A stretch of 64,000 nucleotides of DNA, from contig NZ_CH724107.1 in NCBI RefSeq assembly GCF_000153305.1, positions 2,387,117 through 2,451,116 of the forward strand, written 5' to 3'. The translations under genes were made by a program, and so were the position numbers. Within the stretch, counting starts at the first letter, position 1. Every line of letters begins with the position of its first letter. Positions 10,107 to 35,024 of this stretch are shown in pieces. The DNA is from Oceanicola granulosus HTCC2516. GTDB taxonomy: Bacteria; Pseudomonadota; Alphaproteobacteria; Rhodobacterales; Rhodobacteraceae. Below the pieces are notes generated by a model, which was given only the letters and a program-made list of their open reading frames with translations, searched no databases and was not told where the DNA came from.

Positions 10107-10693
10107 AGCGCCGCCAGGAGCGCGGCGTGGCGCGCGGTGTAGTCGGCGCGCACCTCGACGGGCGGGCGCAGGCGGATGTCGCACTCGTCGATGAACTCGG
10201 GCGCGGGCCGGCCGAAGAAGCGCGTCGCCTCGGCCTCGGAGAAGCCCGCGATCCGCACCGCCTCGAGCCAGGCCGAGACCTTGTCGGCCCGCTTGATCTG
10301 GCGCTTCACCGTCTTCGGCACCTGCGCCGGCAGCCCGAAGCGCAGGTGGATCGCGCTCATCAGCCGCTCGTCGAGCGCTCCGTAAGCCGGTCCGACGGCG
10401 GCCTTCACCGGCGAGATCATGTCGCCGATGACGTATTCCGGCGCGTCGTGCAGCAGCGCCGCCAGCCGCCATTTCGGCGGCGCGGCAGGCACCTGCCGCG
10501 AAAAGATGTCCTCCACCAGCAGCGAGTGCTCGGCGACGGAATAGGCGTAGTCGCCGTGCGTCTGCCCGTTCCAGCGGGCGACGAAGGCGAGGCCGTGGGC
10601 GATGTCCTCGATCTCGATGTCCATCGGCGTCGGGTCGAGCAGGTCGAGCCGGCGGCCGGAGAGCATCCTCTGCCAGGCGCGGGGCTGCTTCAT
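10103..10693 (-). CDS. HD domain phosphohydrolase (YfbR-like)
   Basis: 196 residues. HD-superfamily metal ligands are visible: [13 protein letters not shown] (first His), [14 protein letters not shown] (His-Asp pair) and a later Asp ([10 protein letters not shown]). The YfbR group hydrolyses nucleoside 5'-monophosphates, and this protein has the same size and motif spacing; the true substrate is uncertain. Start ATG 10693 diverges from ahcY, leaving a 167-base intergenic region. The gene is coupled to the downstream GNAT acetyltransferase by a four-base overlap. Confidence 0.82.
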
Positions 10694-10860
10694 CGGGCCG
10701 AGCCGCGCGGCCGGTGCGGGTGGTCGGGCATGAGCGCTCCGTCGTTACGGCTGGCCAGCATGCGCAGCCGGCGGGGGAGGTCAAGGTGGCGCAGTTGTCG
10801 GTTCAGGGTCCACCTGCTAAGGCCGTGGCCAACCGGATCCAGCTCAGGAGTGCCACCGCA

Positions 10861-12246
10861 ATGGCCAAGGATTACGTCGTCAAGGACATCGCTCTCGCCG
10901 GCTACGGCCGCAAGGAGCTCGACATCGCCGAGACCGAAATGCCCGGCCTGATGGCCCTGCGCGAGGAATACGGCGAGAGCAAGCCGCTCACGGGCGCGCG
11001 CATCGTCGGCTCGCTGCACATGACGATCCAGACCGCCGTGCTGATCGAGACCCTGACCGCCCTCGGCGCCGACGTCCGCTGGGCCTCGTGCAACATCTTC
11101 TCCACCCAGGACCACGCCGCCGCCGCCATCGCCGACGCGGGCGTGCCGGTGTTCGCGATCAAGGGGCAGTCGCTGGAGGAGCACTGGGACTACCTCGACC
11201 GCTCGTTCCAGTTCCCCGAGGGTCCGAACATGATCCTCGACGACGGCGGCGACGCGACGCTCTACGTGCTGCTCGGCGCCGACGCCGAGGCCGGCAAGGA
11301 ATTCGGCGTGCCGACCTCCGAAGAGGAAGAGGTGATCCAGGCGCAGATCAAGAAGCGCATGGAGCAGAGCCCGGGCTGGTTCACCAAGACGCGCGACGCG
11401 ATCAAGGGCGTGTCGGAGGAGACCACCACCGGCGTCCACCGGCTTTACGAGCTGGTCAAGCAGGGCCGGCTGCCGTTCCCGGCGATCAACGTCAACGACA
11501 GCGTCACCAAGTCGAAGTTCGACAACAAGTACGGCTGCAAGGAGAGCCTCGTCGACGGCATCCGCCGCGCCACCGACACGATGATGGCAGGCAAGGTCGC
11601 CGTGGTCTGCGGCTACGGCGACGTTGGCAAGGGCTCGGCCGCCTCGCTGCGCGGCGCCGGGGCGCGGGTGAAGATTACCGAGGCCGACCCGATCTGCGCG
11701 CTGCAGGCGGCGATGGACGGGTTCGAGGTGGTGCTGCTCGAGGACGTGATCGACAGCGCCGATATCTTCATCACCACGACCGGCAACAAGGACGTGATCC
11801 GCATCGAGCACATGCGGCAGATGAAGGACATGGCGATCGTCGGCAACATCGGCCATTTCGACAACGAGATCCAGGTCGCCAACCTGCGCAACCACAAGTG
11901 GACGAACATCAAGGAGCAGGTGGACATGATCGAGATGCCCTCGGGCACTCGCATCATCCTGCTCTCTGAGGGCCGCTTGCTGAACCTCGGCAACGCCACC
12001 GGCCACCCGTCCTTCGTGATGTCGGCCTCGTTCACCAACCAGGTGCTGGCGCAGATCGAGCTTTGGACGAAGGGCGACCAGTACGACAACAAGGTCTACA
12101 TCCTGCCCAAGCACCTCGACGAGAAGGTCGCGCGGCTGCACCTCGCCAAGATCGGCGCGCGGCTGACCGAGCTGAGCCCGGAGCAGGCGGCCTATATCGG
12201 CGTCTCTCCCGAGGGGCCCTTCAAGCCCGAACATTACCGCTACTGA
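10861..12246 (+). CDS. ahcY: adenosylhomocysteinase (S-adenosylhomocysteine hydrolase)
   Basis: 461 residues. It has the bacterial SAHase features: [23 protein letters not shown] at the start, [15 protein letters not shown], the NAD-binding loop [35 protein letters not shown] and the C-terminal FKPEHYRY. It hydrolyses S-adenosylhomocysteine to adenosine and homocysteine in the cytoplasm, using bound NAD. ATG 10861 follows an AGGAG and gives the usual N-terminus; the longer open frame upstream has no family similarity. I looked for the SAH riboswitch core known upstream of ahcY in some relatives and did not see it. Confidence 0.97.
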
Positions 12247-20415: not shown

Positions 20416-21177
20416 TCAGCCGCCCGTGCGGATCGCGGGCGGTGGCGGGACCATCTCGCCGCGCTCGCCGCGGCGGCAGAGATAGACTTCGCGCTCGGGC
20501 TGGGCGGTGATTTCGAACCCGGAGGAGCGCAGCATCGCCTCCATCGCGGGCCGGTTCGGGACGAACCAGTTGGTGGGATCGGCCGAGAAGCGCTGCTCGA
20601 TGAACCAGAGCTGCGGCCAGTCGGCGCGCTCGAACGGCTCGGGATCGTCGAAGTCGTAATCGTCCGCGACGGGCGCGGCGGCGGTGTCGGGGCCGCGCTG
20701 CATGCACTGGAACAGCATCAGGTCGTCGACGACGTGCTCGTAGAGCAGGTCGAGCGCGAGCAGCGGGTGGCGCAGGTGGTAGAGCACGCCCATGAAGATC
20801 ACGAGATCGAACCGCTCGCCGAGCGCGGCGACGTCGTAGACGTCCATCTGCCGCAGGTCGAGCTCCACGCCCGCGCGTTCGGCGGCGAACTCCGCCTGTG
20901 CGAGGTAGTGCGGATCGCTGTCGATGCCGACCACGCGGCCCGCGCCGCGCCGCGCCATCTCGAGGCTGTAGAAGCCCGCGTTGCAGCCGATGTCGAGGAC
21001 GCTCGCGCCCTGCAGGTCGTCGGGGAGCACGTCGCGGAAGCCCTCGAACTTGAAGCGCGGGTAGTCGCCCAGGAAGTGGTCGGGGGCGGTTTCGATGCCG
21101 TCGATGGTCAGGTTGTGAAACCACGGCCCGAGCTCGGCGATGCGGCGGGCGGTGGCGTCGCCTGAAGCCTCCGTCAC
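20416..21177 (-). CDS. SAM-dependent methyltransferase (TIGR04290-like)
   Basis: 253 residues from GTG 21177, whose GTGA overlaps the stop of the upstream epimerase. Class I methyltransferase motifs are visible: SVLDIGCNAGFYSLEMARRGA (motif I), VVGIDSDPHYLAQAEFA, and LVIFMGVLYHLRHPLLAL. The N-terminus PWFHNLTIDGIETAPDHFLGDYPRFKF and the 'WFVPNRPAMEAMLRSSGFEI' segment resemble the Rta_06860/TIGR04290 group, which occurs beside carbohydrate genes. It probably methylates the product of this glycan cluster, of which it is the last gene. The acceptor is unknown. Confidence 0.82.
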   Translation of the reverse strand: MTEASGDATARRIAELGPWFHNLTIDGIETAPDHFLGDYPRFKFEGFRDVLPDDLQGASVLDIGCNAGFYSLEMARRGAGRVVGIDSDPHYLAQAEFAAERAGVELDLRQMDVYDVAALGERFDLVIFMGVLYHLRHPLLALDLLYEHVVDDLMLFQCMQRGPDTAAAPVADDYDFDDPEPFERADWPQLWFIEQRFSADPTNWFVPNRPAMEAMLRSSGFEITAQPEREVYLCRRGERGEMVPPPPAIRTGG

Positions 21178-22184
21178 GGGCGCACCTCCGCCGCCGCTTC
21201 CGCGCCGCCGCCGGCGGCCGCGATCGCCGGGCGCTGCAGGGCCTCGGCGAAGTACGGGATCGTCTCCTTCAGACCCTGTTCCAGCGGAACACGCGGCTCC
21301 CAGCCCAGCAGCGCCTTGGCGCGCGAGATGTCGGGGCGGCGGCGCTGGGGGTCGTCCTTGGGCAGCGGGCGAAAGACGGGATGGGCCGAGGTCGGCACCA
21401 TGGAGCGGATCAGCTCGGCCAGGTCGAGGATGGTGAATTCGCCGGGGTTGCCGATGTTGACGGGCGCGTCGGGCGTCTCCGGCACCTCCATCAGCGCCAT
21501 CAGCCCGGCGACCATGTCGGCGACGTAGCAGAAGGAGCGGGTCTGCTGGCCGGTGCCGTAGATCGTCATCGGCTCGTCGGACAGCGCCTGGCAGATCAGG
21601 TTTGACACGATGCGCCCGTCGTCGCACTGCATGTTCGGGCCGTAGGTGTTGAAGATCCGCGCCACGCGCACGTCGGTGCGGCCCGCGCGCAGGTAGTCGT
21701 AGCACAGCGCTTCGGCGGCGCGCTTGCCCTCGTCGTAGCAGGCGCGGGGGCCGGTGCAGCTGACATGCCCGGTATAGCCTTCGGGCTGCGGGTGGACCTC
21801 CGGGTCGCCGTAGACCTCGCTCGTCGAGGCTTGCAGCAGCCGCGCCCCCTTGGCCTCCGCGAGCGCGAGCAGGTTATTGGTGCCGACGACGTTGGTCATC
21901 ATCGTGCGGACCGGGTCCGCCTGGTAGGCGGGCGGCGAGGCGGGGGAGGCGAGATTGTAGATGCGGTCGATACGGCCCGAGATCGGCGGAAGCGTCTCTA
22001 CTTCACCGTCAATGAGCCGGAAGTTCCGGTGGCCGAGCAGGCCGGCGACGTTGTGCCGGGTTCCGGTCTGGTAGGAATCCAGCGCGATCACCCGGTGGCC
22101 CTCCTCGAGCAGGGCGGCGCAGAGGTGCGAGCCGATGAAGCCGGCACCACCGGCCACGAGTATGGTTCTGGGCAGGGGGGTCAT
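21174..22184 (-). CDS. NAD-dependent epimerase/dehydratase (UDP-xylose synthase-like)
   Basis: 336 residues from ATG 22184; an ATG at 22190 is an alternative. Extended SDR features: LVAGGAGFIGSHLCAALLEEGH (NAD loop), the ASPASPPAYQADPVRTMMTNVVGT stretch, STSEVYGDPEVHPQPE, an ARIFNTYGPNM box and RSFCYVADMVAGL. The pattern, including CYDEGKRAAEAL as the Y-x3-K motif, is that of UDP-glucuronate decarboxylase (UXS), which makes UDP-xylose. A related sugar-nucleotide epimerase is possible. The start at 22184 gives the same four-base overlap seen at every junction in this operon. Confidence 0.82.
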   Translation of the reverse strand: MTPLPRTILVAGGAGFIGSHLCAALLEEGHRVIALDSYQTGTRHNVAGLLGHRNFRLIDGEVETLPPISGRIDRIYNLASPASPPAYQADPVRTMMTNVVGTNNLLALAEAKGARLLQASTSEVYGDPEVHPQPEGYTGHVSCTGPRACYDEGKRAAEALCYDYLRAGRTDVRVARIFNTYGPNMQCDDGRIVSNLICQALSDEPMTIYGTGQQTRSFCYVADMVAGLMALMEVPETPDAPVNIGNPGEFTILDLAELIRSMVPTSAHPVFRPLPKDDPQRRRPDISRAKALLGWEPRVPLEQGLKETIPYFAEALQRPAIAAAGGGAEAAAEVRP

Positions 22185-23299
22185 GTCCATTCCGGCGTCT
22201 CCTTCGCTTCCCGACGGGTCCCCTCGTCCGGTAGTTTCTGAAGTTCTGCGGCCAGCTCCGCCGCCCGCGCCCGACCGGTATGGCCGGCGAGGACGATCTT
22301 CCGGGCCCGCGCCGCGAGGGCCTCGGGCGTCGTTCCGTCCCGCCCGGTCAACGCGGCAACGGCATCATCAGTGCCATCGGCGATGACGATCGCCTCCCCC
22401 TCCGGCAGCAGCTCGCCGAGACCTCGCCAGCGGTCGGACAGGATCGGCGTGCCGACGGCCGCGGCCTCGAACAGCCGGACGCTCGGCGACCAGCCGAGCC
22501 GGCGCATCGCGGCGCGGGTGATGTTCAAGGTGAAGCGCTGGGCGCTGTAGAAGGCGGCGTGCTCGCTCGGCGGCAGGTGCTCGATCCGCTCGACGTTGGC
22601 GGGCCAGTCGATGTCGTCCGGATATTGCGGCCCGGCCACGACGAAGCGCATCCCGGGCAGCCGCCGCGCCGGCTCGATCAGCAGCGCCTCGAGGCCGGGC
22701 TGGCGGTCGTCGCTGTAGGTGCCGAGGTAGCCCATGTCCCACTTGATCGGCACGTCGGCGCGGGCGTAGCGGGTCTCGTCGACGGAGCAATAGAGCGGCA
22801 GCGGGCGACGCGCGCCGTAGCGCTCGGCGAGCCGGTCGAGCACGCGGCCGCCGGAGAAGCTGAAATAGGCGTCGAACAGCGGCACCTGCCGCTTCGCGAG
22901 GTGCGTGTCCTCGCCCTTGTCGAGCAGGTCCATCGTGACAGGCGTGTCGATATCGTAGAAGCAGAGTCGCTTGAGCGGCATCTCCGCGAGCCGGTCGATC
23001 AGCGCCGCGCCCTCGGGGACGTAGCTGCCGACGATCACCGCGTCGGCGGCCTCGAGCCGGGCGGCGTGGCGGCCGGTGATGTCGTCGAGCGCGTGGTAGT
23101 AGACCAGCTCGCAGAAGTCCGGGTCGGGCAGGTCGCGGTTGTCGCCCGCGTACCACGGCACCTCGCGCTCGAGGAACAGGACGCGGTGGCCTTCGGCGGC
23201 GAGGCCCTTGATGAGCGCGCGGAAGGTCGTCGCGTGGCCGTTGCCCCAGCTCGAGGCGAGCGACAGGCCGAGGATGACGATGTCGAGCGGCTTGCTCAT
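22181..23299 (-). CDS. glycosyltransferase, CgeB-like (GT-B fold), paralogue 3
   Basis: 372 residues. The N-terminus MSKPLDIVILGLSLASSWGNGHATTFRALIKGLAAEGHRVLFLERE parallels the two upstream neighbours. The C-terminal domain (about 250-350) has the Glyco_trans_1_2 layout: FTLNITRAAMRRLGWSPSVRLFEAAAVGTPILSD, then a LLPEGEAIVIAD tail. These are features of spore-coat CgeB-type glycosyltransferases with a GT-B fold. No signal peptide or membrane segment is seen, so it acts in the cytoplasm or at the inner face of the membrane. Donor and acceptor unknown. Overlaps both neighbours by four bases. Confidence 0.75.
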   Translation of the reverse strand: MSKPLDIVILGLSLASSWGNGHATTFRALIKGLAAEGHRVLFLEREVPWYAGDNRDLPDPDFCELVYYHALDDITGRHAARLEAADAVIVGSYVPEGAALIDRLAEMPLKRLCFYDIDTPVTMDLLDKGEDTHLAKRQVPLFDAYFSFSGGRVLDRLAERYGARRPLPLYCSVDETRYARADVPIKWDMGYLGTYSDDRQPGLEALLIEPARRLPGMRFVVAGPQYPDDIDWPANVERIEHLPPSEHAAFYSAQRFTLNITRAAMRRLGWSPSVRLFEAAAVGTPILSDRWRGLGELLPEGEAIVIADGTDDAVAALTGRDGTTPEALAARARKIVLAGHTGRARAAELAAELQKLPDEGTRREAKETPEWT

Positions 23300-24387
23300 G
23301 CCGTCGCCTCCGAAGAACGCACCCGTGCGCGCAGCAGCGCGTCGAGCTGGCGGGCGCGGTGTTGGTAGGTGTGCTCGGCCAGGATCCGGGCGCGGGCCCG
23401 CTCGCCGATGGCGGCGTCGCGGCCGGGGGGCATGTCGCGCAGCGCCTCGGTGACGTCCTGCCCGTCGCGGGCGACGAGCACCTCCTCGCCGGGCTTCAGG
23501 AACAGCTCGATCCCCTCCCAGTAATCCGTCATCAGGCATGCCCCCGCGCCCGCCGCCTCGAAGACGCGGGTGGCCGGGGAGAAGCCCGTCGCGGCCATCG
23601 AATCGCGGGCGATGTTGAGCACCATCCTGGGGGTGACGTTGAAGGCGTTGTGGTCGGCGGTGCGCACGTGGCCGAGGCAGCGGACGTTGCCCGGCACCTT
23701 GTCCTGCTCCCATCCCGAGCCGCCGAGCAGGAACGTGTGCCCGCTCAGCGCGCGGGCGGGGCCGAAGAAGAACTCGTCCACCCGCGCCTCGCGGTCGGGG
23801 AGGCGGTTGCCGAGGAAGGCGAGGTCGCAGGCAAAGCGCGGATCGGGCGGGACCGGGTGATGCGTCGACGGATCGAGCGCGTTGTAGACGGGCACGCATT
23901 CGCGCGCGCCGAGGGCCCGGTAGGCGTCGATCACGGGCTGGCCGCCGCCGTAGGTCAGGACGAGATCGAGGTCGGGCAGCATGGTGCGCAGCGCGTCGTC
24001 GGGGTCGGCCTGCATGGCGGCGAGGGTGGCGGGGGCGTCGACGTCCCAGAAGATGCGCAGCGTGTGCGGCGCGGCGTGGCTCATCACCTCGCGCAGCAGC
24101 ATGTCGTCCTCGAAGCCGACGCCGCTGGCCTTCACCACCACGTCGGCCTTCGCGGCCTCGGCGGCGACGCGCTTCAGCGCCTCGGGCGTGCCGTCGTAGA
24201 CCACCACCTCGCACCACTCGGGCGGGTCGATGTCGCGGTTGGCCTGCCGGTCGTAGACGTCGGGCTCGTAGAAGGTGACGCGGTGGCCGTGCGCGGTGAG
24301 GGCCTGGATGATGCCCCGGTAGTAGGTCGCGGCGCCGTTCCAGTAGCTCGACAGCAGGCTGGACCCGTAGAATGCGATGCGGCTCAT
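23296..24387 (-). CDS. glycosyltransferase, CgeB-like, paralogue 2
   Basis: 363 residues. It starts MSRIAFYGSSLLSSYWNGAATYYRGIIQALTAHGHRVTFYEPD and has the CgeB-like middle region (YDGTPEALKRVAAEAAKADVVVKASGVG, IFWDVDAPATLAAM, DLVLTYGGGQPVIDAYRALGA). The C-terminal donor-binding half ends with SPATRVFEAAGAGACLMTDYWEGIELFLKPGEEVLVA, the Glyco_trans_1_2 signature. This is the most CgeB-like of the three tandem paralogues. It presumably adds one sugar of the cluster's product; specificity is not predictable. Confidence 0.8.
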   Translation of the reverse strand: MSRIAFYGSSLLSSYWNGAATYYRGIIQALTAHGHRVTFYEPDVYDRQANRDIDPPEWCEVVVYDGTPEALKRVAAEAAKADVVVKASGVGFEDDMLLREVMSHAAPHTLRIFWDVDAPATLAAMQADPDDALRTMLPDLDLVLTYGGGQPVIDAYRALGARECVPVYNALDPSTHHPVPPDPRFACDLAFLGNRLPDREARVDEFFFGPARALSGHTFLLGGSGWEQDKVPGNVRCLGHVRTADHNAFNVTPRMVLNIARDSMAATGFSPATRVFEAAGAGACLMTDYWEGIELFLKPGEEVLVARDGQDVTEALRDMPPGRDAAIGERARARILAEHTYQHRARQLDALLRARVRSSEATA

Positions 24388-25505
24388 GCGCTGGCCTCCG
24401 TTGTCGTCTTGGTGTCGATGTCGAGGCGGGTCAGCACCGCGAGCAGTTCGTCGGCGCGATGGCCGCAGGTGTGGCGGGCGTGGATCGTCTCGAGCCCGCA
24501 GGTCGCCTGCTCGCGCGCGGCGTCCGGGTTGGAGAGCAGCTCGCGCAGGTGGGCGGTCATCTCGTCGCCGTCGGCGGCGAAGCGGAAGTCGCCGGGCCGG
24601 AACAGACCCTCGGCATCGTCCCACGGCGCGCTGACGAGGGGGATGCCGCAGGCCAGCGCCTCGAACGGGCGGATGGTCGGGATGCCGGGCAGGCTCTCGA
24701 CATAGGGCCGGCGCGGGACGTGGACGGTGACGCGATGGGCGGCGAAGGCGCGGGGGACGTCGGTGTTGGCGATGCTGCCGGCGAAGTTGATGCCCGCGTC
24801 GCGCAGCCGGGCGCGCGCGTGGTCGGGGTAGCGGACGCCGTGGATGCGGGTCTTGAGGCCGAGCAGCTCGGCGGGCGCGATGAGGAACCGCTCGAGCTCT
24901 TCGGTCCGCTCGCCGTCGCCCCAATTGCCGACCCAGACGAGGTCGCCCTCCGGCTTGGCGGCCGGATCGGGGCGGAACAGGCTCACATCCGCGGCCTCGT
25001 GCCAGGTGAAGACCTGCCGGCCCCAGCCCGCCGCGAGGTAGCGCTCGCGCAGGGCCTCGCCGAAGGCCAGCACCCCGTCGTAGCCCGCCAGGTCCATGCC
25101 GGCGATCTCGCCCTCGGCGCTGACGGCCCGGTGGTGGGTGTCGTGGAACAGCAGCGTGAACCGCCCGCCGCGCGCCCGCGCCCGCCCGATGCGGGCGACG
25201 AGGGTCGGGTCGGTCCACTCGTGCACCACCACCACGTCGGCGGCGTCGAGCGCGGCCTCGTGGTCGAAGCCGGCGCCGTAGATTTCCCAGCTCAGCTCGG
25301 GGAAGACCCGCTCGAAGTCGCCGATCGCCCCGGGCCCACGGTCGGCGATCAGGTTCTCGCGGCTCCACGCGCCGTCGGGTTCGAGCGCGTGGGTGCCGTG
25401 GCCGCGGACCTGCAGGGCGCGCATGACGCCGCGCAGGAAGTGGGCGTTGCCGTGGTTCCAGTCGGAGGCGAGGGAGTGGGTGTAGAACAGGAAGCGCATG
25501 GTCAC
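24384..25505 (-). CDS. glycosyltransferase, CgeB-like, paralogue 1
   Basis: 373 residues from GTG 25505 (four-base overlap with the previous gene); ATG 25499 would shorten it by two residues. The start FLFYTHSLASDWNHGNAHFLRGVMRALQVRGH aligns with the paralogues. Middle motifs are VVVHEWTDPTLVARIG and LLFHDTHHRAVSA. The C-terminal half has HVPRRPYVESLPGIPTIRPFEALACGIPLVSAPWDDAEGLFRPGDFRFA, the GT-B donor-binding region. A cytoplasmic glycosyltransferase acting within the same pathway as its neighbours; sugar donor unknown. Confidence 0.78.
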   Translation of the reverse strand: MTMRFLFYTHSLASDWNHGNAHFLRGVMRALQVRGHGTHALEPDGAWSRENLIADRGPGAIGDFERVFPELSWEIYGAGFDHEAALDAADVVVVHEWTDPTLVARIGRARARGGRFTLLFHDTHHRAVSAEGEIAGMDLAGYDGVLAFGEALRERYLAAGWGRQVFTWHEAADVSLFRPDPAAKPEGDLVWVGNWGDGERTEELERFLIAPAELLGLKTRIHGVRYPDHARARLRDAGINFAGSIANTDVPRAFAAHRVTVHVPRRPYVESLPGIPTIRPFEALACGIPLVSAPWDDAEGLFRPGDFRFAADGDEMTAHLRELLSNPDAAREQATCGLETIHARHTCGHRADELLAVLTRLDIDTKTTTEASA

Positions 25506-26590
25506 TCGGCGGCTGTCAGCGCCGCGGCGGCGGCGACGCGGTCATGGATGTCGGCCATCGCCCGGGCCTGCGCGGCGAGGGTGTAGCGCGCGGCGCGGGT
25601 CTTGGCGGCCGCGCCGAGGGCGCTGCGGCGGGCGGGGTCACGGGCGAGGGCGGTGAGGGTGGCGGCGAGCGCGTCGGCGTCGCCGGGCGGGAAGAAAAGG
25701 GCGGAATCGTCCCACAACTCGCGAAAGGTCGGGATGTCGGACAGCACCAGCGGCGCGCCGGCGCGGGCGGCTTCGAGCACGGCGAGGCCGAACGGCTCGT
25801 AGAGCGACGGCGACACGAAGATGCCGGCGCTCGCGATTAGGCGGGCTGCGGCGTCATGGGGCAGCGCGCCGCGATGGTCGGCGACCTGCACATCGAGGCG
25901 GGCGCCGTTGGGGCCGGCCGTGGCGCCGAGCATGAGCACCGGCCAGTCGACCCGTCCGGCGGCGGCGTCGAGCGTCGCACCGCCCTTGCCCTCGTCCCAC
26001 CAACGGCCGGCGGCGACAATGGTCTCCGTGCGGGTCACCTCCGGCACTGCGTCCGCGCTGGCATTGTGGACGACGTGGAGGTCGTTCAGGCCGGAATAGA
26101 GCCGCTTCAGCGCCGCCGCTTGTGCCGCGGAAGGCGCGACGACGGCGTCGGCGCGGGCCAGGCCGGCAGCGGTCAGCTCGTGCGCCCAGGCCATGTCGCC
26201 GGGCACGCCGCTGCCGCGCACTGCCTCGAACCAGCTGGCGAGGCAGGAGTGCGACACAGCGAGCACCGGCCGGCCCGACGGCAGGTCGGCGGCCTGGCTC
26301 GGCAGGTTGCACTGGATCAGCCCGGCGCCGCGACGGTCGGCGACCTCGGCGAGCCAGTCGCCCGCTCCGGCCACGTCCCCCGGCCCCCGCGCCATCCACT
26401 CGAGCGCCTGCGGCCCCCAATCGAGCGGCCCCAGCGCCTCGGCCTCGGCGCGCTGGGCGGCGTCGGGAGCAGGCCCGAAGCCGGCGAAGCAGACGGGCCG
26501 CCCGAGCGCGCGCAGGCCGCGGGCGAGGTCGATGGCGTAGCGCCAGACGCCGCCGACGGCGTCGAGGGTCAGCAGGACGGGCGGGGTCAT
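25502..26590 (-). CDS. glycosyltransferase family 4 (GT1/GT4 group)
   Basis: 362 residues. Typical GT4 features: an N-terminal VLLTLDAVGGVWRYAIDLARGLRALG, the mid-protein DAVVAPSAAQAAALKRLY and VVHNASAD segment, and the C-terminal SPSLYEPFGLAVLEAARAGAPLVLSDIPTFRELW. The last contains the E-x7-E motif of retaining GT-B glycosyltransferases. It differs clearly from the three CgeB-like paralogues downstream, so at least two kinds of transferase act in the pathway. Overlaps both neighbours by four bases. Confidence 0.85.
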   Translation of the reverse strand: MTPPVLLTLDAVGGVWRYAIDLARGLRALGRPVCFAGFGPAPDAAQRAEAEALGPLDWGPQALEWMARGPGDVAGAGDWLAEVADRRGAGLIQCNLPSQAADLPSGRPVLAVSHSCLASWFEAVRGSGVPGDMAWAHELTAAGLARADAVVAPSAAQAAALKRLYSGLNDLHVVHNASADAVPEVTRTETIVAAGRWWDEGKGGATLDAAAGRVDWPVLMLGATAGPNGARLDVQVADHRGALPHDAAARLIASAGIFVSPSLYEPFGLAVLEAARAGAPLVLSDIPTFRELWDDSALFFPPGDADALAATLTALARDPARRSALGAAAKTRAARYTLAAQARAMADIHDRVAAAAALTAAE

Positions 26591-28581
26591 GCCGGCACCC
26601 GCAACCGCTCCGGAGCCGGGCTCTCGCCGTCCGTCAGCCAGTCCGCCAGGCCGCGCAGGCCGTCGCGCCAGCCGATCCGCGCGCGCCAGCCCGTCGCGGC
26701 CTCGAGCGCGCGGGTGTCGGCGACGAACCACGGCTGATCGCCCTGCCGCCAGTCCTGGTAGGTGACGTCGATGTCGCGCCCGGTGATCGACTCGATCTCG
26801 CGCAGCACCTGCATCAGGCTGACCGCGTTGCCCGGCCCGCCGCCGAGGTTGAACGCGCGGCCGCGCAGGCCGTCGATCTGGCCGAGCACGGCGCGATAGG
26901 CCCGCACGGCGTCGGCGACGTCGAGCACGTCGCGGACCTGCCGGCCGGTGCCGAAGACGGTGATCGGGCGCTTCTTCAGAGCCTGGATGAGGAAATGCGC
27001 CACCCAACCCTGATCCTCGGTGCCGAACTGGCGGGGGCCGTAGATGCAGCTCATCCGGAGTACGGCAGCGGGCAGGCCGTAGCTCTTGGCGTAGTCGAGC
27101 ACGTACTGGTCGGCGACGCCCTTGGAGCAGCCGTAGGGCGTGCAGAAATCCAGCGGCCGCCCCTCGCCGACGCCGTGCGCGCGGACGGAGGGATCGTCGG
27201 GCGCGCAGGCTTCGTTGCTGTCGGTGACGGTGAGGTCGGCGAGATCGCCGTAGACCTTGTTGGTCGAGGCGAAGAGCAGCGGCACCGGCCGGCCCGTCGC
27301 GCGCAGGGCCTCGAGCACGTTCAGCGTGCCGCGCGCGTTGACGTCGAAATCGGCGACGGGCGAGGTCAGCGACGTCGTCACCGCCGTCTGCGCCGCCATG
27401 TGCAGCACCGCGTCCGCGTCGTGCAGGGCCTCGCGCACCGACGGCTCGTCGCGCAGGTCGACAGGTACGGCGTGGAGCCGGTCGCCGTGCCGGTCGGCCA
27501 GCCAGCGCAGGTTGCGCTCGACGCCGGGGCGGCTGAGGTTGTCGAGCACGACCACGTCGCGCCCCTCGGAAAGGAAGCTTGCGGCAAGGTTGGAGCCGAT
27601 GAAGCCCGCACCGCCCGTCACCACGAGGGGCCGCACGGCCTTGCCGACGGCGGGCGTGGCGAGGCGGGTGACCTCCTCGACGCGCGCGGTGCCGCCGGAG
27701 GTGAGCAACCGGGCGAGCAGCTTGGGCTGGTTGCCGCTGTCGATGGCGCCGAGGTGGTAGTGGCGCGGGTCGAACCAGAGCCCCTCCTGCACCGCGACGT
27801 CCTGCGGCAGGTCGCGCCAGGCGTACCAGTACATCCGCTCGGCCGGTGCCTTCAGCGCCTGCGCGAAGCGACGCGCCTGCTCCAGCTCGTCGCGCCGCCA
27901 GGTGGAATAGCCGGTTTCGGTGATCCAGATCTCGCAGGCCGGGTTCCAGCGGTCGAGGATCGCGCGCATCTCACCGAGGTGCGTCTCCCAGCCGTTCCAG
28001 GTGCCGGCCTCGCTGTCCCAGGTGCCGGGGAAGCCGTGGAAGCCGGCGGCGTCGACCTGCGCCAGCAGGCCGCGCTCGCCCATCAGGTTGAGCCAGTACA
28101 CATCGAATGGTGCCGGGCCGGCGAGGACGGGCTTCCAGCCGCGATGCTTGGCCCAGTAGGCTGCGCCGCCGACCATCTCGCAGAACAGGTCAGACGCGGG
28201 GTCCTCGCGCCAGTCCCAGTCGAGCAGGTTGTTGGGCTCGTTCCAGAGCTCGATATGCTCGAAGTGATCGCCGTGCCGCGTCAGCACCGCGTCGATGAAG
28301 TCGGCGTAGTCCTTGAGCACCTTCGGCGCGCCGGAGCTGCGCCCGGTGCGCGAGAGCGAGGGGGGCGTGTAATGCACGCAGGGCAGCAGCTCGAGATCGC
28401 GGGCGAGACGGGGCAGGAGCCAGTCGTACCACTCCTGCCCGCCCTCGGCGTGGTACTCCGCCCAGCTCAGGTGGGTCCGCAGGTACTTCGCGCCGGACGC
28501 GACGAGGCCCGGCAGCACCGCCTCCACCCGATCGTATTCGCCGGGGCGAAACCATTCGACGAAGCCGTAGTCTCGTTTCAC
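26587..28581 (-). CDS. glycoside hydrolase (clan GH-A-like) fused to an SDR sugar epimerase
   Basis: 664 residues in two parts. Residues 1-300 resemble a TIM-barrel glycosidase of the GH39/GH5 type: ELWNEPN places Glu115 as likely acid/base and IWITETGY places Glu222 as likely nucleophile, followed by MYWYAWRDLPQ. Residues 317-664 are a complete extended SDR: VTGGAGFIGSNLAASF (NAD loop), FASTNKVYGDL, FCTPYGCSKGVADQYVLDY (Tyr/Lys pair) and RMSCIYGPRQFG, most like CDP-paratose 2-epimerase/UDP-glucose 4-epimerase types. A short linker joins them and there is no signal peptide. The pair suggests trimming or transglycosylation coupled to making an activated sugar. Frame is open across the joint, so it is a true fusion. 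Each half is confident; the joint role is inference. Confidence 0.8.
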   Translation of the reverse strand: MKRDYGFVEWFRPGEYDRVEAVLPGLVASGAKYLRTHLSWAEYHAEGGQEWYDWLLPRLARDLELLPCVHYTPPSLSRTGRSSGAPKVLKDYADFIDAVLTRHGDHFEHIELWNEPNNLLDWDWREDPASDLFCEMVGGAAYWAKHRGWKPVLAGPAPFDVYWLNLMGERGLLAQVDAAGFHGFPGTWDSEAGTWNGWETHLGEMRAILDRWNPACEIWITETGYSTWRRDELEQARRFAQALKAPAERMYWYAWRDLPQDVAVQEGLWFDPRHYHLGAIDSGNQPKLLARLLTSGGTARVEEVTRLATPAVGKAVRPLVVTGGAGFIGSNLAASFLSEGRDVVVLDNLSRPGVERNLRWLADRHGDRLHAVPVDLRDEPSVREALHDADAVLHMAAQTAVTTSLTSPVADFDVNARGTLNVLEALRATGRPVPLLFASTNKVYGDLADLTVTDSNEACAPDDPSVRAHGVGEGRPLDFCTPYGCSKGVADQYVLDYAKSYGLPAAVLRMSCIYGPRQFGTEDQGWVAHFLIQALKKRPITVFGTGRQVRDVLDVADAVRAYRAVLGQIDGLRGRAFNLGGGPGNAVSLMQVLREIESITGRDIDVTYQDWRQGDQPWFVADTRALEAATGWRARIGWRDGLRGLADWLTDGESPAPERLRVPA

Positions 28582-29693
28582 GATACCAGGCCCCGCGCCT
28601 CGAGCTGGCGGCGCATCTCGTCGCCACGGTCTTGCTTGTCCTGCGCGGGCGCGTTGCGGACCCAGTCGACGAACGGGCCGAGGCTGTCCTCGAGCCGGTG
28701 CTCGGGCTCGAAGCCGAGCAGGCGCTTGGCCTTTGAGATGTCGGAGAAGCAGTTGCGGATATCACCGGAGCGGAACTTGCCGAGGATCTCGGGGGTCAGC
28801 TCGGGGCAGCCCATCGCGTCGGCGAGCAGCTCGGCGACCTGCGTGATGCTGTAGGCGTTGCCGGAGCCGACGTTGATGACCTCGCCCGCGGCCTCGTCGT
28901 GCTCGAGCGCGAGCGCGAAGGCGCGGGCGACGTCGCGGACATGGACGAAGTCGCGCTTCTGCTGGCCGTCCTCGAAGATCGTCGGCCGCTGCCCGTTGGC
29001 GAGGCGCGAGGCGAAGTTGGCGAGAACGCCGGTATAGGGGTTGGACAGAGCCTGCCCGGCGCCGAACACGTTGAACAGGCGCAGCGAGGTGGTGGGGATG
29101 TCGTAGGCCTCGCCGAAGATCAGGCAGGCCTGCTCCTGCTGATACTTCGTGAGGGCGTAGATGGAGGCGAGGTCGACCCGCTTCCTCTCGTCGGTCGGGC
29201 GCGGGGTGAGCGCCTCACCGTCGGGGCCCTCGGGCTCCCACTTGGCCGCCTTCAGGTCGCTGTTGCGGCGGCGGACGCCCTCGTGGAGTGCGCCGTCGGG
29301 GCCGGCATAGTAGCCTTCGCCGTAGACGCTCATCGACGAGGCGACGACGAGGCGGCGGATCGGATCCTCGGCGATGGCTTCGAGCAGGACGGCGGTGCCG
29401 AGGTCGTTGGCGCTGACGTAGCGGGCGATCTCGTACATCGACTGGCCGACGCCGACCTCGGCGGCGAGGTGCACCACCTCGTCGACACCCTTCAGCGCCG
29501 AGCGGAGCTTGTCGATCTCGCGCACGTCTCCGCGCACCACCTCCGCCCCCTCGGGCACTTCGGCGGCGGCGTCGCCGTGGACCTGATCGATCATCGCATC
29601 GTACAGCACGACCTCACGGCCCCGGGACAGCAGCTCCGTCGCCACCTGCCGACCGATAAAACCGCACCCGCCGGTTACGAGCGTCTTGACCAT
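28578..29693 (-). CDS. NAD-dependent epimerase/dehydratase (first gene of the glycan operon)
   Basis: 371 residues from ATG 29693; the longer open frame upstream lacks the family start. Extended SDR signs: TLVTGGCGFIGRQVATELL, HLAAEVGVGQSMYEIARYVSANDLGTAVLLEA, SMSVYGEG, and the YALTKYQQEQACLIF catalytic Tyr/Lys pair. A long insert rich in charged residues follows the VYGEG segment. LRLFNVFGAGQALSNPYTGVLANFASRL and KRDFVHVRDVARAFALAL resemble UDP-glucose 4-epimerase-like enzymes (WbpP/GalE group). It leads the eight-gene operon, after a 222-base divergent intergenic region. Confidence 0.83.
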   Translation of the reverse strand: MVKTLVTGGCGFIGRQVATELLSRGREVVLYDAMIDQVHGDAAAEVPEGAEVVRGDVREIDKLRSALKGVDEVVHLAAEVGVGQSMYEIARYVSANDLGTAVLLEAIAEDPIRRLVVASSMSVYGEGYYAGPDGALHEGVRRRNSDLKAAKWEPEGPDGEALTPRPTDERKRVDLASIYALTKYQQEQACLIFGEAYDIPTTSLRLFNVFGAGQALSNPYTGVLANFASRLANGQRPTIFEDGQQKRDFVHVRDVARAFALALEHDEAAGEVINVGSGNAYSITQVAELLADAMGCPELTPEILGKFRSGDIRNCFSDISKAKRLLGFEPEHRLEDSLGPFVDWVRNAPAQDKQDRGDEMRRQLEARGLVS

Positions 29694-29892: not shown

Positions 29893-29915
29893 CCGTGCAG
29901 ACGCAGGGAGACAGC

Positions 29916-30932
29916 ATGACAGACACCACCAGCCACGCCGCGTCCGCCGAGGGCGCGACCGGACCCGGCGCGGGCGGAATGCAGGCGGCGCAGGTCGTCG
30001 CGCCGGGCCAGGTCGAGATGCGCACGCTGCCGCTGCCCGAGCCGGGGCCGGGCGAGGTGCGGGCGCGGATCGAGGGCTGCGGCGTCTGCGCGTCAAACCT
30101 CGAGCCGTGGGCGGGGCCGGAGTGGCAGGAGTTCCCGATGGAGCCGGGCGGGATGGGCCACGAGGCGTGGGGCGTCGTCGAGGCGCTGGGCGCGGACGTG
30201 CGCGGGCTGGCGGTGGGCGATCACATCGGCTGGCTCGGCAGCCACGGCTACGCCAGCCACGAGGTGCTCCCCGCGGCCGCCGCGCTAATCCTGCCGCCGG
30301 CGCTCGCGGGGCGGCCCTTCCCGGCCGAGCCGCTGGGCTGCGCGATGAACATCTTCCGCCGGTCCGGCATCGAGGCGGGGCGGACCGTCGCGATCATCGG
30401 CATCGGCTTTATCGGCGCGACCCTCACCGCCCTGGCCGCCAGGGCGGGCGCGCGGGTGATCGCGATCTCGCGGCGCGACAGTTCGCTGGAGCTGGCGCGG
30501 CAGATGGGGACAGCCGAGACGATCCCGATGCACGACCACTGGGAGATCATGCGCGAGGTGGGGCGGCTGACCGGGGACAGGCTCTGCGACGTGGTGATCG
30601 AGGCGGTCGGGCTGCAATGGCCGCTCGACCTCGCCGGCGAGCTGGTCCGCGAGGGCGGGCGGCTGGTGGTGGCGGGCTACCACCAGGACGGGCCGCGGCA
30701 GGTCAACATGCAGATGTGGAACTGGAAGGGCATCGACATCGTCAGCGCTCACGAGCGCGACCCGGAGGTGCAGATGCGCGGGATGCGCGAGGCGGTCGAC
30801 GCGGTGGCCGACGGGCGGGTCGACCTCGCGCCGCTGCTGACCCACCGCTTCCCGCTGTCCGAGCTCGGCCGGGCACTCGACGCGACCCGGGACAAGCCCG
30901 ACGGGCTGGTCAAGGCATGGGTGCAGCCGTGA
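29916..30932 (+). CDS. zinc-binding MDR dehydrogenase
   Basis: 338 residues from ATG 29916 (CAGGGAG upstream). Medium-chain dehydrogenase features: EGCGVCASNLEPW (first zinc-ligand Cys), GGMGHEAWGVVEALG (His-Glu motif) and the Rossmann stretch TVAIIGIGFIGATLTALAARAGARVIAIS. The structural-zinc four-Cys lobe of classical alcohol dehydrogenases is not evident. Such enzymes oxidise or reduce secondary alcohols or sugars (for example inositol or sorbitol) with NAD(P). Followed with a four-base overlap by a Gfo/Idh oxidoreductase and divergent from the glycan operon, it probably belongs to the same sugar pathway. Confidence 0.85.
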   Translation: MTDTTSHAASAEGATGPGAGGMQAAQVVAPGQVEMRTLPLPEPGPGEVRARIEGCGVCASNLEPWAGPEWQEFPMEPGGMGHEAWGVVEALGADVRGLAVGDHIGWLGSHGYASHEVLPAAAALILPPALAGRPFPAEPLGCAMNIFRRSGIEAGRTVAIIGIGFIGATLTALAARAGARVIAISRRDSSLELARQMGTAETIPMHDHWEIMREVGRLTGDRLCDVVIEAVGLQWPLDLAGELVREGGRLVVAGYHQDGPRQVNMQMWNWKGIDIVSAHERDPEVQMRGMREAVDAVADGRVDLAPLLTHRFPLSELGRALDATRDKPDGLVKAWVQP

Positions 30933-31933
30933 GCCGCCCCCGCCTCGCCTTCCTCGGCCTCGGCTGGATCGGACGGCACAGGATGGAGGCGGTCGCCGCC
31001 GCCGACATCGCCGACATCGTCGCTCTCTCCGACCCGTCCGCGGAGGCCGTCGACGCCGCCGCCGAGTCCGCGCCGGACGCCGTGCGCTGCGACGGGCTCG
31101 AGGAACTGCTCGCCGAGAAGCCGGACGGCGTCGTCATTGCCACGCCCTCCGCGCTGCATGCCGAGCAGACGATCGCCGCCCTCGGGGCCGGCGCGGCCGT
31201 GTTCTGCCAGAAGCCCCTCGGCCGTACCGCCGAGGAGGCCCGCGCCTGCGTGGAGGCGGCGCGGGGGGCCGGCCGACTCCTCGCCGCGGATCTCAGCTAC
31301 CGCCACGCCGCCGCCTTCATGGCCCTGCGCGACGCGGTGGCGGCGGGGGAGCTGGGGCCGGTCCATGCGGTCGACCTGACGTTCCACAACGCCTACGGCC
31401 CCGACAAGCCGTGGTTCCGCGACCGGGCACTATCGGGCGGCGGCTGCCTCATCGACCTCGGTGTGCACCTGGTCGACATGGCCGTCTGGGCGCTGGGAAC
31501 GCGCGACCTCCGCTGCACCTCCGCGCATCTCTACAGCGGCGGACAGAGACTGACCGGCGCGGCGCTGCAGGAGACGGTGGAGGATTATGCGGCGGCCACG
31601 CTTGAGACAACGGACGGGGCGGTGGTGCGCATCGCCTGCTCCTGGAACCTCCCGGCGGGGCGCGAGGCTGTGATCGAAGTCGAGGCCTTCGGCGCGCACG
31701 GGGGCTTCGCGGTGACCAACGAGCACGGCAGCTTCTACGACTTCTCCGCCCACCGCCACCACGGCACCAGCACCAAGCAACGTGTCGCCCCGCCCGACGC
31801 GTGGGGAGGGCGCGCCGCGGCCGACTGGGCGAGGCGTCTGGCGGAGGGGGAGCGATTCGACCCGGCCTGCGAAGGCCTCGTGGACCTCGCCGCGGCGATC
31901 GACGCGGTCTACGCGCGGGCGGCGGCGGGCTGA
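30929..31933 (+). CDS. Gfo/Idh/MocA family oxidoreductase
   Basis: 334 residues from GTG 30929, which overlaps the MDR stop by four bases; ATG 30917 is an alternative start. N-terminal Rossmann fold: PRLAFLGLGWIGRHRMEAVAAADI, DGVVIATPSALHAEQTIAALGAGAAVFCQKPLGRTAEEA (the conserved E/Q-K-P motif, here C-Q-K-P). The C-terminal domain has SGGGCLIDLGVHLVDMAVWALG with the usual D-x3-H catalytic pair. These enzymes oxidise or reduce sugars or inositols with NAD(P). The Gln in place of the common Glu in EKP is a small oddity. Confidence 0.88.
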   Translation: MSRPRLAFLGLGWIGRHRMEAVAAADIADIVALSDPSAEAVDAAAESAPDAVRCDGLEELLAEKPDGVVIATPSALHAEQTIAALGAGAAVFCQKPLGRTAEEARACVEAARGAGRLLAADLSYRHAAAFMALRDAVAAGELGPVHAVDLTFHNAYGPDKPWFRDRALSGGGCLIDLGVHLVDMAVWALGTRDLRCTSAHLYSGGQRLTGAALQETVEDYAAATLETTDGAVVRIACSWNLPAGREAVIEVEAFGAHGGFAVTNEHGSFYDFSAHRHHGTSTKQRVAPPDAWGGRAAADWARRLAEGERFDPACEGLVDLAAAIDAVYARAAAG

Positions 31934-32276: not shown

Positions 32277-33008
32277 TCAGGTCGTCTCGAAGCGGACGGA
32301 GCCGTCCTCGATGATCGCGGCGGTGAGGCGACCAGTGGCGTAGGCGCCGGTGTCAGTCGCGATGCGGCCGCGCGCGGCGCTGGGCGCGTCGACGATGGTG
32401 TGGCCGTGCGCGATCCAGAGCCCGTCGGTGCGCGCGGTGCGCTCGAAGTCGGGGTGCCCCCAGAGCAGGGTCCGGTCCTCCTGCGCGTCGAGCGGCAGCG
32501 CCGGGTCGGCGGCGGCGTGCACGACGGCGACGTTGCCCGAGCGGGTGGTGCGGGGCAGGGCGCGGAGCCAGTCGGCGAGATCCTCCCCCATCGCCTCGAG
32601 CAACGCGTCGCGGCGCTGGTCGGCCGCTTCGGGATCGGGGCGCGGACCGAAGGCGAGGCGGAAGCTGGCGAGCGTCTGCAGCCCGCCGTTCGCCAGCCAG
32701 CGCCGCTCCGACCCGGCGGGGCTGTCGAGGAAGTCGAGCAGCATCCTCTCGTGGTTGCCCATCAGGCAGACGGCCCGCCCCTCGCCGACGAGCGCGCGGC
32801 AGGTTTGCAGCACCTCCGCGCTCTCCTCGCCGCGGTCGATATAGTCGCCGACGAGCACCGTCCGCGCGTCCGGATCGAGCCGGTCGAGGAGGCGCAGCAG
32901 CAGGTCGTGGCGGCCGTGGACGTCGCCGATCACCTGCAGCTTGCCCTCCGGGTTCGGCGGGTCGAACTCGGCGGACGTGCGCATGAGGCGGGACAGGAAG
33001 CGCATCAT
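32277..33008 (-). CDS. metallophosphoesterase (serine/threonine protein phosphatase-like)
   Basis: 243 residues. All PPP-type metal motifs are visible in order: VIGDVHGRHD, LVGDYIDRGEES, LMGNHERML, a histidine in VAVVHAAADP, and WIAHGHTIVD near the C-terminus. This is the set found in bacterial PrpA/ApaH-like protein phosphatases with two bound metals. Targets could be phosphoproteins or diadenosine polyphosphates; by size it fits the small bacterial protein phosphatases. Stand-alone minus-strand gene, 175 bases from the divergent ThuA gene. ATG 33005 is an equally good start. Confidence 0.88.
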   Translation of the reverse strand: MMRFLSRLMRTSAEFDPPNPEGKLQVIGDVHGRHDLLLRLLDRLDPDARTVLVGDYIDRGEESAEVLQTCRALVGEGRAVCLMGNHERMLLDFLDSPAGSERRWLANGGLQTLASFRLAFGPRPDPEAADQRRDALLEAMGEDLADWLRALPRTTRSGNVAVVHAAADPALPLDAQEDRTLLWGHPDFERTARTDGLWIAHGHTIVDAPSAARGRIATDTGAYATGRLTAAIIEDGSVRFETT

Positions 33009-33183: not shown

Positions 33184-33969
33184 ATGGCCATCCGTACCAT
33201 CGTCTGGGGCGAGAACGTCCACGAACAGAAGAGCAAGATCGTCGCCGGGATCTACCCCGACGGGATGCACCAGACCATCGCCGACGCGCTCAACGCCGCC
33301 GGCGGTATCGACGCCGAGACCGCGACGCTCCAGGAGAAGGAGCACGGTCTGCCCGAGTCGCGGCTGGCCGAGACGGACGTGCTGATCTGGTGGGGCCACG
33401 CCGCGCACAAGGACGTCGACGACGAGATCGTCGCCCGGGTCTGCCGGCACGTCTGGGCCGGGATGGGGCTGATCGTGCTGCATTCGGGTCACTTCTCGAA
33501 GGTGTTCAAGGCCCTGATGGGCACCCCCTGCAACCTCACCTGGCGCGAGGCCGGCGAGCGCGAGCGGCTCTGGGTCACCTCGCGCAGCCACCCGATCGCC
33601 GCCGGGCTGCCGGACCATTTCGAGCTCGAGAACGAGGAGATGTATGGCGAGCCCTTCGGCATCCCCGAGCCGATGGAGACGGTGTTCGTGAGCTGGTTCC
33701 AGGGCGGCGAGGTGTTTCGCTCGGGCGCGACCTGGCGGCGCGGCGCGGGCAACGTGTTCTACTTCCGCCCCGGCCACGAGACCTACCCGACCTACCACGA
33801 CGGCAACGTCCAGAAGGTGATCGCCAACGGCGTGCGCTGGGCGCACAATCCGGCGGCACGGCTGACCGATCCCGAGGCGGCGCCCAACGTGCCCGTCGAG
33901 AAGGCGCTCGAGCCGATCGAGGCGCGCGGGGAGAAGCTGCACGCGGACGGCGAAGAGGGCTTCCGGTGA
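33184..33969 (+). CDS. ThuA domain-containing protein
   Basis: 261 residues, a class I glutamine-amidotransferase-like (ThuA) fold: [64 protein letters not shown] and [16 protein letters not shown]. ThuA proteins are associated with trehalose and other disaccharide utilisation; an enzymatic activity has not been clearly shown. ATG 33184 has AGGAG upstream. It overlaps by four bases with a Gfo/Idh oxidoreductase, the usual partnership (as in thuAB). Confidence 0.9.
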
Positions 33970-35024
33970 GCGACGTCCGGGTCCTGATCCTCGGCACCGG
34001 CGGCATGGCCAACAGCCATGCCGAGGCCTACGCCGCGATGCCCGGGGTCGTTCTCGCCGCCGGGGTCGACACCAATCCGGGGCGGCTCGCCGAGTTCAAG
34101 GCGCGGCACCGCATGGAGCACGGCTTCACCTCGCTCGCCGACGCCATCGCCTGGGGCGAGTTCGACGCGGTCTCCAACGTCACCCCCGACGCCGCGCACC
34201 ATGTCACCACGATGGCGCTGCTGGCGGCGGGCAAGCACGTGCTCTGCGAGAAGCCGCTGGCCACCAACGCCGACGACGCCGCCGAGATGGCGCAGGCCGC
34301 CGAGGCGGCGGGCGTGGTCAACATGGTCAACCTGACCTACCGCAACGTCCCCGCGCTGATCCAGGCGCACGCGATGGTCGAGGCCGGCGAGATTGGAGAA
34401 GTGCGCCACTTCGAGGCGGCATACCTGCAGAGCTGGCTGACCCAGGACGCCTGGGGCAAGTGGGACGAAGACCAGCAATGGCTGTGGCGGCTGTCCACCA
34501 AGCACGGCTCGACCGGCGTGCTCGGCGACATCGGCGTCCACATCGTCGACTTCGCCACCTTCGCCGCCGGGCGCATGGGGGTGGATGACGTTTCCTGCCG
34601 GCTAACCACCTTCGACAAGGCGCCGGGCGGGCGGATCGGCGAGTACGTGCTCGACGCCAACGACAGCTTCGCGATGCATGTCGGGCTCGAGAACGGCGCG
34701 GTCGGGGTGATCCACGCCAGCCGCTTCGCCTCGGGCCACATCAACGACCTGTCGTTGCAGCTGTTCGGCACGAAAGGCGGGCTCAGGGTCGAATTCCGCG
34801 GCGGCGCGAGCACCCTCACCGCCTGCCTGGAGCCCGACCTGCGCTCGGGCACCTGGCGCCCGGTGGCGGCGCCGGCGGTGCCGACGAACTACGAGCGCTT
34901 CATCGCCGCGATCCGCGCCGGCGCGCAAGTGCGCCCCGATTTCGCGCGCGGCGCACAGCTGCAGCGGGTCCTCGACCGGGCCATCGAGTCCGACGCCGCC
35001 GGGGGCCTCAAGCTGGACGTCTGA
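33966..35024 (+). CDS. Gfo/Idh/MocA family oxidoreductase (ThuB-like position)
   Basis: 352 residues from GTG 33966. Rossmann motif [25 protein letters not shown], then [40 protein letters not shown] with the EKP motif intact, and [19 protein letters not shown] with the D-x3-H pair. Coupled by GTGA to thuA, it fits a ThuB-like sugar dehydrogenase forming keto-sugars, though ThuB function is not assigned from sequence alone. A strong hairpin follows the gene. Confidence 0.9.

Follow-up and report, generated by a model that had tools for sequence, protein, structure and literature searches.

The fusion gene and its two halves

The stretch of the Oceanicola granulosus HTCC2516 genome analysed here (64,000 nucleotides of contig NZ_CH724107.1; hereafter the window) carries a gene, GH:SDR2, in which a predicted glycoside hydrolase (GH) barrel is joined to an epimerase of the short-chain dehydrogenase/reductase (SDR) type (Table 1). 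The original prediction, made from the sequence alone, placed one continuous frame joining a glycosidase-type barrel and an epimerase at 26587-28581; these limits are exact, and the strand, which it left unstated, is the minus one. Along this strand, the gene order is SDR1, GH:SDR2, GT4, CgeB1, CgeB2, CgeB3, SDR3, and a TIGR04290 family methyltransferase gene. The fusion gene overlaps the genes on both sides by 4 bases: its GTG start and the TGA of SDR1 form GTGA, and its own TGA and the ATG of GT4 form ATGA; because of these overlaps, it probably belongs to an operon. The linker between the two halves ends in a putative internal start codon, which could give rise to a free epimerase. No signal peptide is visible by eye in the N-terminus (MKRDYGFVEWF...), in line with the prediction.

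Is this one odd gene? The original prediction called the pairing unusual; it proves to be a conserved architecture which, judging from sequence, is widespread in alphaproteobacteria. Two short peptide patterns, run against 84,980 named genomes, returned 158 relatives, of which the best 80 were kept (split forms may exist among the lower-ranked ones); at all 80 of these loci, the barrel and the epimerase lie in a single frame, and the order SDR1, GH, SDR2, GT4, CgeB1 is constant. The join is also uniform in length: 209 residues separate WNEPNN from the NAD loop at 69 of the 71 loci in which the loop motif was matched, and 208 or 210 at the others (the nine loci with an unmatched motif were excluded from this count). 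Flanks of up to 10 kb contain the alcohol dehydrogenase (ADH) gene at 78 of the 80 loci, Gfo1 at 77, SDR3 at 76, and TIGR04290 at 65. A missed stop codon or a frameshift is refuted as the source of the join: the frame there is the same in the 80 named loci and in eight of 101 relatives, a count that includes the window (identity of the remaining seven to the window protein, 58-84%), and plasmid records annotate the fusion as one coding sequence.

The epimerase half matches Pfam Epimerase (residues 320-580, E 2.8e-52), and its residues 317-652 resemble CDP-tyvelose 2-epimerase (TyvE; 1orr, 9rl0; SDR family 1E) in both fold (1orr, Z 35.4, 39% identity) and sequence (E 1.2e-78). The predicted NAD loop and Y-x3-K motif are present as G-G-x-G-F-I-G and Y483-x3-K487. 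T440-N441-K442 is kept in 80/80 fusions, and Y483, K487, Q524, and W526 in 79/80; the sole fusion that lacks Y483/K487 (L066, from Gellertiella hungarica) has an in-frame stop at the codon of the catalytic Tyr. The frame of this locus (match 10001-10894) stays open past the stop, which is either a sequencing error or the sign of a broken gene. TyvE is described as having a Thr124/Tyr164/Lys168 triad and a TNK segment in which the N125A substitution abolishes activity (PMC13098431); Thr124, Tyr164, Lys168, and Asn125 correspond to T440, Y483, K487, and N441. SDR2 thus shares with TyvE about 40% identity, the catalytic T/Y/K, the TNK segment, and a DQGW loop, but differs in its fusion to a barrel and in having TAV (T399-A400-V401 in 80/80 fusions) where TyvE has VAM (Val83-Ala84-Met85). 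By its sequence, this half likely catalyzes C2 epimerization of some sugar nucleotide.

In the barrel half, residues 1-304 have no Pfam or NCBIfam match at E up to 10; searches of the PDB with the barrel sequence returned nothing or weak matches (4ipl, E 0.04; E 0.026); and the 19 pattern matches to the barrel in viral contigs include no true relatives. A fold search with the whole chain listed 50 matches, exclusively epimerases and other SDR enzymes; the barrel was therefore predicted on its own. The AlphaFold2 model of residues 1-300, based on 44 aligned barrels, consists of eight alternating β/α units (predicted template modeling score, pTM, 0.87 alone; 0.83 in the whole-chain model), with strands at residues 6-9, 33-39, 64-70, 109-113, 150-153, 178-183, 217-223, and 249-253. 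In silico, the two halves thus fold as a barrel and, in residues 317-652, as a TyvE-like enzyme, in agreement with the glycosidase-type barrel and the epimerase of the original prediction.

In clan GH-A, the acid/base Glu follows an Asn at the end of strand 4, and the nucleophile Glu stands at the end of strand 7. The model has all these features: a (β/α)8 barrel, N114-E115 directly after strand 109-113, and E222 within strand 217-223. Both glutamates are where they had been predicted (Glu115 in WNEPN, Glu222 in TETGY) and, together with N114, are invariant in the 80 fusions; both Glu motifs are also intact in 18/18 further fused stretches, a few of which are the same gene twice. The closest solved structure is that of Pseudomonas aeruginosa PslG (CAZy GH39, clan GH-A), with entries at ranks 1-3 in both fold searches: in Foldseek it reaches E 6.6e-14, against E 3e-10 for the best of the other entries, and in VIA-align Z 25.9 (root-mean-square deviation 3.0 over 287 residues). 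GH39 entry 5jvk ranks fourth in VIA-align (Z 24.6); GH1 entries score about 23, within 2.5 Z, so the proximity to GH39 folds is a lead only, and the barrel is not filed in GH39 because the Pfam model of this family does not recognize it. On this modeled fold, the barrel appears to be a PslG-like member of clan GH-A. PslG resembles it in strand order and in the positions of the two glutamates (in PslG, the catalytic pair is reported as Glu165 and Glu276, 111 residues apart; PMC11912335, PMC9075953), and the pslG gene likewise sits within a polysaccharide biosynthesis operon. The two proteins are only 17-18% identical in structural alignment; furthermore, PslG is described as inner-membrane/periplasmic (PMC9075953), whereas in the window protein the barrel shares a chain with an epimerase of cytoplasmic type.

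Table 1. Features of the GH:SDR2 locus (window positions) and of related decayed fusions (positions in the named locus)
Feature	Position	Strand	Remarks
GH:SDR2 fusion gene	26587..28581	minus	664 aa, GTG start, one open frame
Residues 1-304, clan GH-A-like (β/α)8 barrel, PslG-like (predicted)	27670..28581	minus	AlphaFold2, Foldseek, VIA
Glu115 codon, predicted acid/base	28237..28239	minus	WNEPNN, after strand 4; E in 80/80
Glu222 codon, predicted nucleophile	27916..27918	minus	WITETGY, end of strand 7; E in 80/80
Linker, residues 305-316	27634..27669	minus	last codon is an in-frame GTG
Residues 317-664, CDP-tyvelose 2-epimerase-like SDR (SDR2)	26590..27633	minus
SDR1, NAD-dependent epimerase/dehydratase	28578..29693	minus	start chosen by homology
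GT4 glycosyltransferase	25502..26590	minus
CgeB1, Glyco_trans_1_2 glycosyltransferase	24384..25505	minus
CgeB2, Glyco_trans_1_2 glycosyltransferase	23296..24387	minus
CgeB3, Glyco_trans_1_2 glycosyltransferase	22181..23299	minus
SDR3	21174..22190	minus	annotated in relatives as 'UDP-glucuronic acid decarboxylase family'
TIGR04290 family methyltransferase	20419..21168	minus	374 bits against a cut-off of 300; frame as searched, start approximate
Zinc-binding alcohol dehydrogenase (ADH)	29895..30932	plus	divergent from SDR1; start approximate
Gfo/Idh/MocA oxidoreductase (Gfo1)	30929..31933	plus	divergent from SDR1; start approximate
Decayed fused barrels	L168 8907-10733; L181, L182, L183, L218		one genus, order of G766

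A stand-alone, permuted counterpart

A search with the barrel profile across a phylum-wide sample of 398 genomes found the fused form in three genomes and, in 11, stand-alone frames that match the two parts of the profile in swapped order, its end ahead of its beginning; five further matches are weaker (E 1e-17 to 8e-8). In 14/14 aligned permuted proteins, residues 4-190 correspond to profile positions ~107-290 (i-E 3.8e-28 to 2.4e-34) and residues 196-295 to positions ~2-103 (5e-13 to 2.1e-15); rotation of the sequence restores one full-length match in every case. The proteins begin with MIEAA (13/14) or MINSV (1/14) right before WNEPNN, that is, at strand 4, and their glutamates, E10 and E112, are invariant. 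Annotations call them 'beta-xylosidase' or hypothetical, or omit them. Pfam PF11790 (GH128) touches all 14 (best E 0.00012); its score for member 1, 19.2 bits, lies below the cut-off of 21, and the family was not filed there.

Which order came first? The profile of the permuted family finds PslG by sequence (E 6.4e-6) with the halves swapped; the fused order is therefore the PslG order and, with this one outgroup, the stand-alone order is probably the derived one. The two glutamates of the permuted family align with the PslG pair, 111 residues apart like Glu165/Glu276 if a constant numbering offset is assumed. Among glycosidase barrels, a natural circular permutation is known between GH70 and GH13 (clan GH-H). 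GH70 is described as beginning at α3-β4 and finishing at β3 (PMC11046441), the same cut site as in the stand-alone barrel, which starts at β4; GH70 enzymes, however, belong to another clan, differ in fold details, and are described as extracellular proteins with several more domains (PMC11046441), unlike the lone barrel of ~310 residues. Among the papers listed in the literature searches (titles and the beginnings of abstracts, a scope that does not establish absence from print), no permutation within clan GH-A was found; the stand-alone permutant, as read from its sequence, appears to be new here.

Where the barrel is permuted, the epimerase is encoded by a separate gene, and the cluster is otherwise similar. 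That the two genes are normally separate in relatives, which the original prediction named among the findings that would refute it, is true of some lineages only, those that carry the permuted barrel, and not of the 80 loci with the join. The two forms were counted in two samples, for which both the barrel profile and the epimerase served as queries: the phylum sample and a class sample of 385 genomes, with three genomes in both. In the phylum sample, the 14 genomes with an epimerase at 54-100% identity are exactly those that carry a fused (3) or a permuted (11) barrel; this count leaves out the five weak barrel matches and two more epimerases with 41-43% identity. In the class sample, 15 genomes have an epimerase at 51% identity or above: seven with the fused form only, two with both forms, five with the permuted form only, and one (G514) in which no barrel was found. 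A 10-kb contig of the latter (L245) encodes a solo epimerase, a radical SAM protein, transferases, a methyltransferase, inositol-phosphate synthase, and histidine phosphatase. A 16th epimerase, at 41% identity (G620), has no other cluster gene within 13 kb. Altogether, 25 of the 26 genomes with the epimerase have a fused or a permuted barrel.

On a tree of the epimerases, the fused and separate states require at least four changes, and a single clade of separate epimerases is rejected (AU test, p-AU 1.5e-8). The tree gives no direction of change; its rows were hand-chosen among the loci, and the separate epimerases were found via their permuted barrels, a bias of which the 25/26 count is free. 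Row L230, the best match of which is an unrelated SDR, was left out. The row nearest to the window is that of Palleronia marisminoris. The three Sinorhizobium rows are placed within a set of fused rows from Rhizobiaceae and related families (support for the set 93/92, not starred), a position that points to a loss of the fused barrel there.

A possible intermediate survives in one genus. In 5/5 genomes searched, the fused barrel lacks Glu115, and in four of them also Glu222 (G875 has kept the latter); the epimerase half is intact, and a permuted barrel with both glutamates is encoded elsewhere in the genome. Genome G635, which also speaks against simple redundancy, has both forms; its fused barrel keeps Glu222, and a contig end truncates the remainder. 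In L180 (G844), a divergent fused barrel with both Glu motifs is followed by a longer linker before the epimerase, and no permuted copy was found in the genome.

The permuted gene keeps company of its own. Among 26 stretches that carry it, inositol-3-phosphate synthase (INO1) is encoded nearby in 24, histidine phosphatase in 25, and the TIGR04290 methyltransferase in 19; the two stretches without the synthase are L223 (3.9 kb) and L175 (14 kb, starting at a contig end; the phosphatase is also unseen). In a Bradyrhizobium version of the cluster, a phosphopentomutase (DeoB) gene directly follows the permuted barrel (L132 10470-11672, L142 14942-16147).

What the barrel may do, in cis or in trans

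Why would a putative glycosidase be tethered to an enzyme that makes a sugar nucleotide? Starting from the fusion, the permutation, the co-occurrence, and the conserved residues, all read at the level of sequence, and from a predicted fold, we infer which types of reaction take place, that the barrel hydrolyzes instead of transferring, what its substrate is, that the enzyme is cytoplasmic, and that the cis and trans forms share one job. We lean, if only slightly, toward a cytoplasmic enzyme with two activities, encoded in an operon for glycan biosynthesis; the pathway would include a retaining glycosidase step that is supplied either in cis or in trans. The C-terminal half would act as an NAD-dependent C2 epimerase producing a sugar-nucleotide donor; GT4 and the three CgeB transferases would assemble an oligosaccharide in the cytoplasm; and the N-terminal half, a PslG-type retaining β-glycosidase with Glu115 as acid/base and Glu222 as nucleophile, would trim or release this oligosaccharide by double displacement. 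The same step would be provided in cis by the fusion and in trans by the stand-alone permuted barrel, mostly encoded beside INO1. A trimming role, which the original prediction had put forward alongside proofreading and recycling, would fit the analogy with PslG, a glycosidase from a polysaccharide operon that has been proposed to trim or release Psl (PMC9075953). It is slightly more likely than not that a single glycosidase activity of an alphaproteobacterial glycan pathway exists in two interchangeable topologies, fused canonical in cis and permuted in trans, which have been swapped several times, with a decaying pseudoenzyme as an intermediate.

Several observations sit uneasily with this picture. 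The cut-off of Pfam GH39 (PF01229) is not reached, with 10 of 44 relatives matching at a best E of 0.049. INO1, which travels with the permuted gene, lies within the flanks of 0/80 fusion loci, and a search of the window genome with PF01658 gave zero inositol-phosphate synthase matches; the two barrels could have different substrates. G514 (82% complete, 660 contigs) has the epimerase with no barrel found. A sign test over independent pairs is non-significant (median p 0.25), and the decayed barrels are confined to one genus, about one event. Finally, since 8/80 fusion genomes (six Rhizobium, Agaricicola, and Phyllobacterium) keep an intact fusion together with a permuted barrel, the two forms may not be redundant.

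If the barrel has retaining chemistry, does it hydrolyze or transfer? The main rival to trimming is a transglycosidase that would use the same covalent intermediate to pass the glycan to an acceptor, e.g., inositol, and would thus build rather than trim. Retaining chemistry allows it, INO1 accompanies the permuted gene in 24/26 stretches (the inositol link is one of genomic context), and none of the listed cluster genes is annotated as a flippase or a polymerase, although no search was aimed at these; on the other side, the sequence features examined do not separate transfer from hydrolysis, and PslG itself is described as an endo-hydrolase (PMC11912335). We regard transfer as rather unlikely. 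A role for the fused barrel as scaffold or glycan-binding module, its catalysis being dispensable, is suggested by the five genomes that retain it despite the loss of Glu115 in all and Glu222 in four, and by relatives in which the epimerase has no fused barrel at all; but both glutamates are kept in 80/80 fusions and 18/18 further stretches, and decayed barrels are seen only alongside an intact permuted one, which makes this explanation improbable. Proofreading, in which the barrel would remove a sugar that the joined epimerase had not yet converted when it was added, making one protein the maker and the corrector of one linkage, would account for the joining of these two activities; stereochemical preference is unreadable from sequence, and the barrel and epimerase are separate genes in the permuted lineages. 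We consider it less probable still.

Annotation and the wider cluster

The exchange of topologies can be approached directly: fused and permuted forms and the decaying intermediate persist in related genomes, within one pathway, so the swap is open to a direct replacement study. Two public annotations are corrected along the way: 'NAD-dependent epimerase/dehydratase' overlooks the barrel, and 'beta-xylosidase' overlooks the permutation. The barrel also offers a handle on a cluster with an uncharacterized product that is common to many rhizobia and Rhodobacterales, including two laboratory strains, Sinorhizobium meliloti 1021, which carries the permuted barrel (pSymB, about 257009-257890), and Rhizobium etli CFN 42, which carries the fusion.

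This cluster is visible in NCBIfam as a pair of hypothetical equivalogs: the window methyltransferase passes TIGR04290, and TIGR04295, a radical SAM protein, is present in several relatives. Neither name was found in the literature searched, and guessed S. meliloti locus tags SMb20241-20246 gave no literature match; among SMb20229-20234, SMb20231 is an ABC transporter protein.

Beyond the divergent ADH and Gfo1 genes, a metallophosphoesterase gene with weak ApaH-like matches lies near the Gfo/Idh gene (32277-33008, minus strand), and the R. etli cluster (L144) likewise has a metallophosphoesterase nearby. At 33187-35024 on the plus strand, a ThuA-like gene (recognized by eye, with no match in NCBIfam) is followed by a second Gfo/Idh/MocA oxidoreductase gene; the two possibly form a separate sugar catabolic unit.

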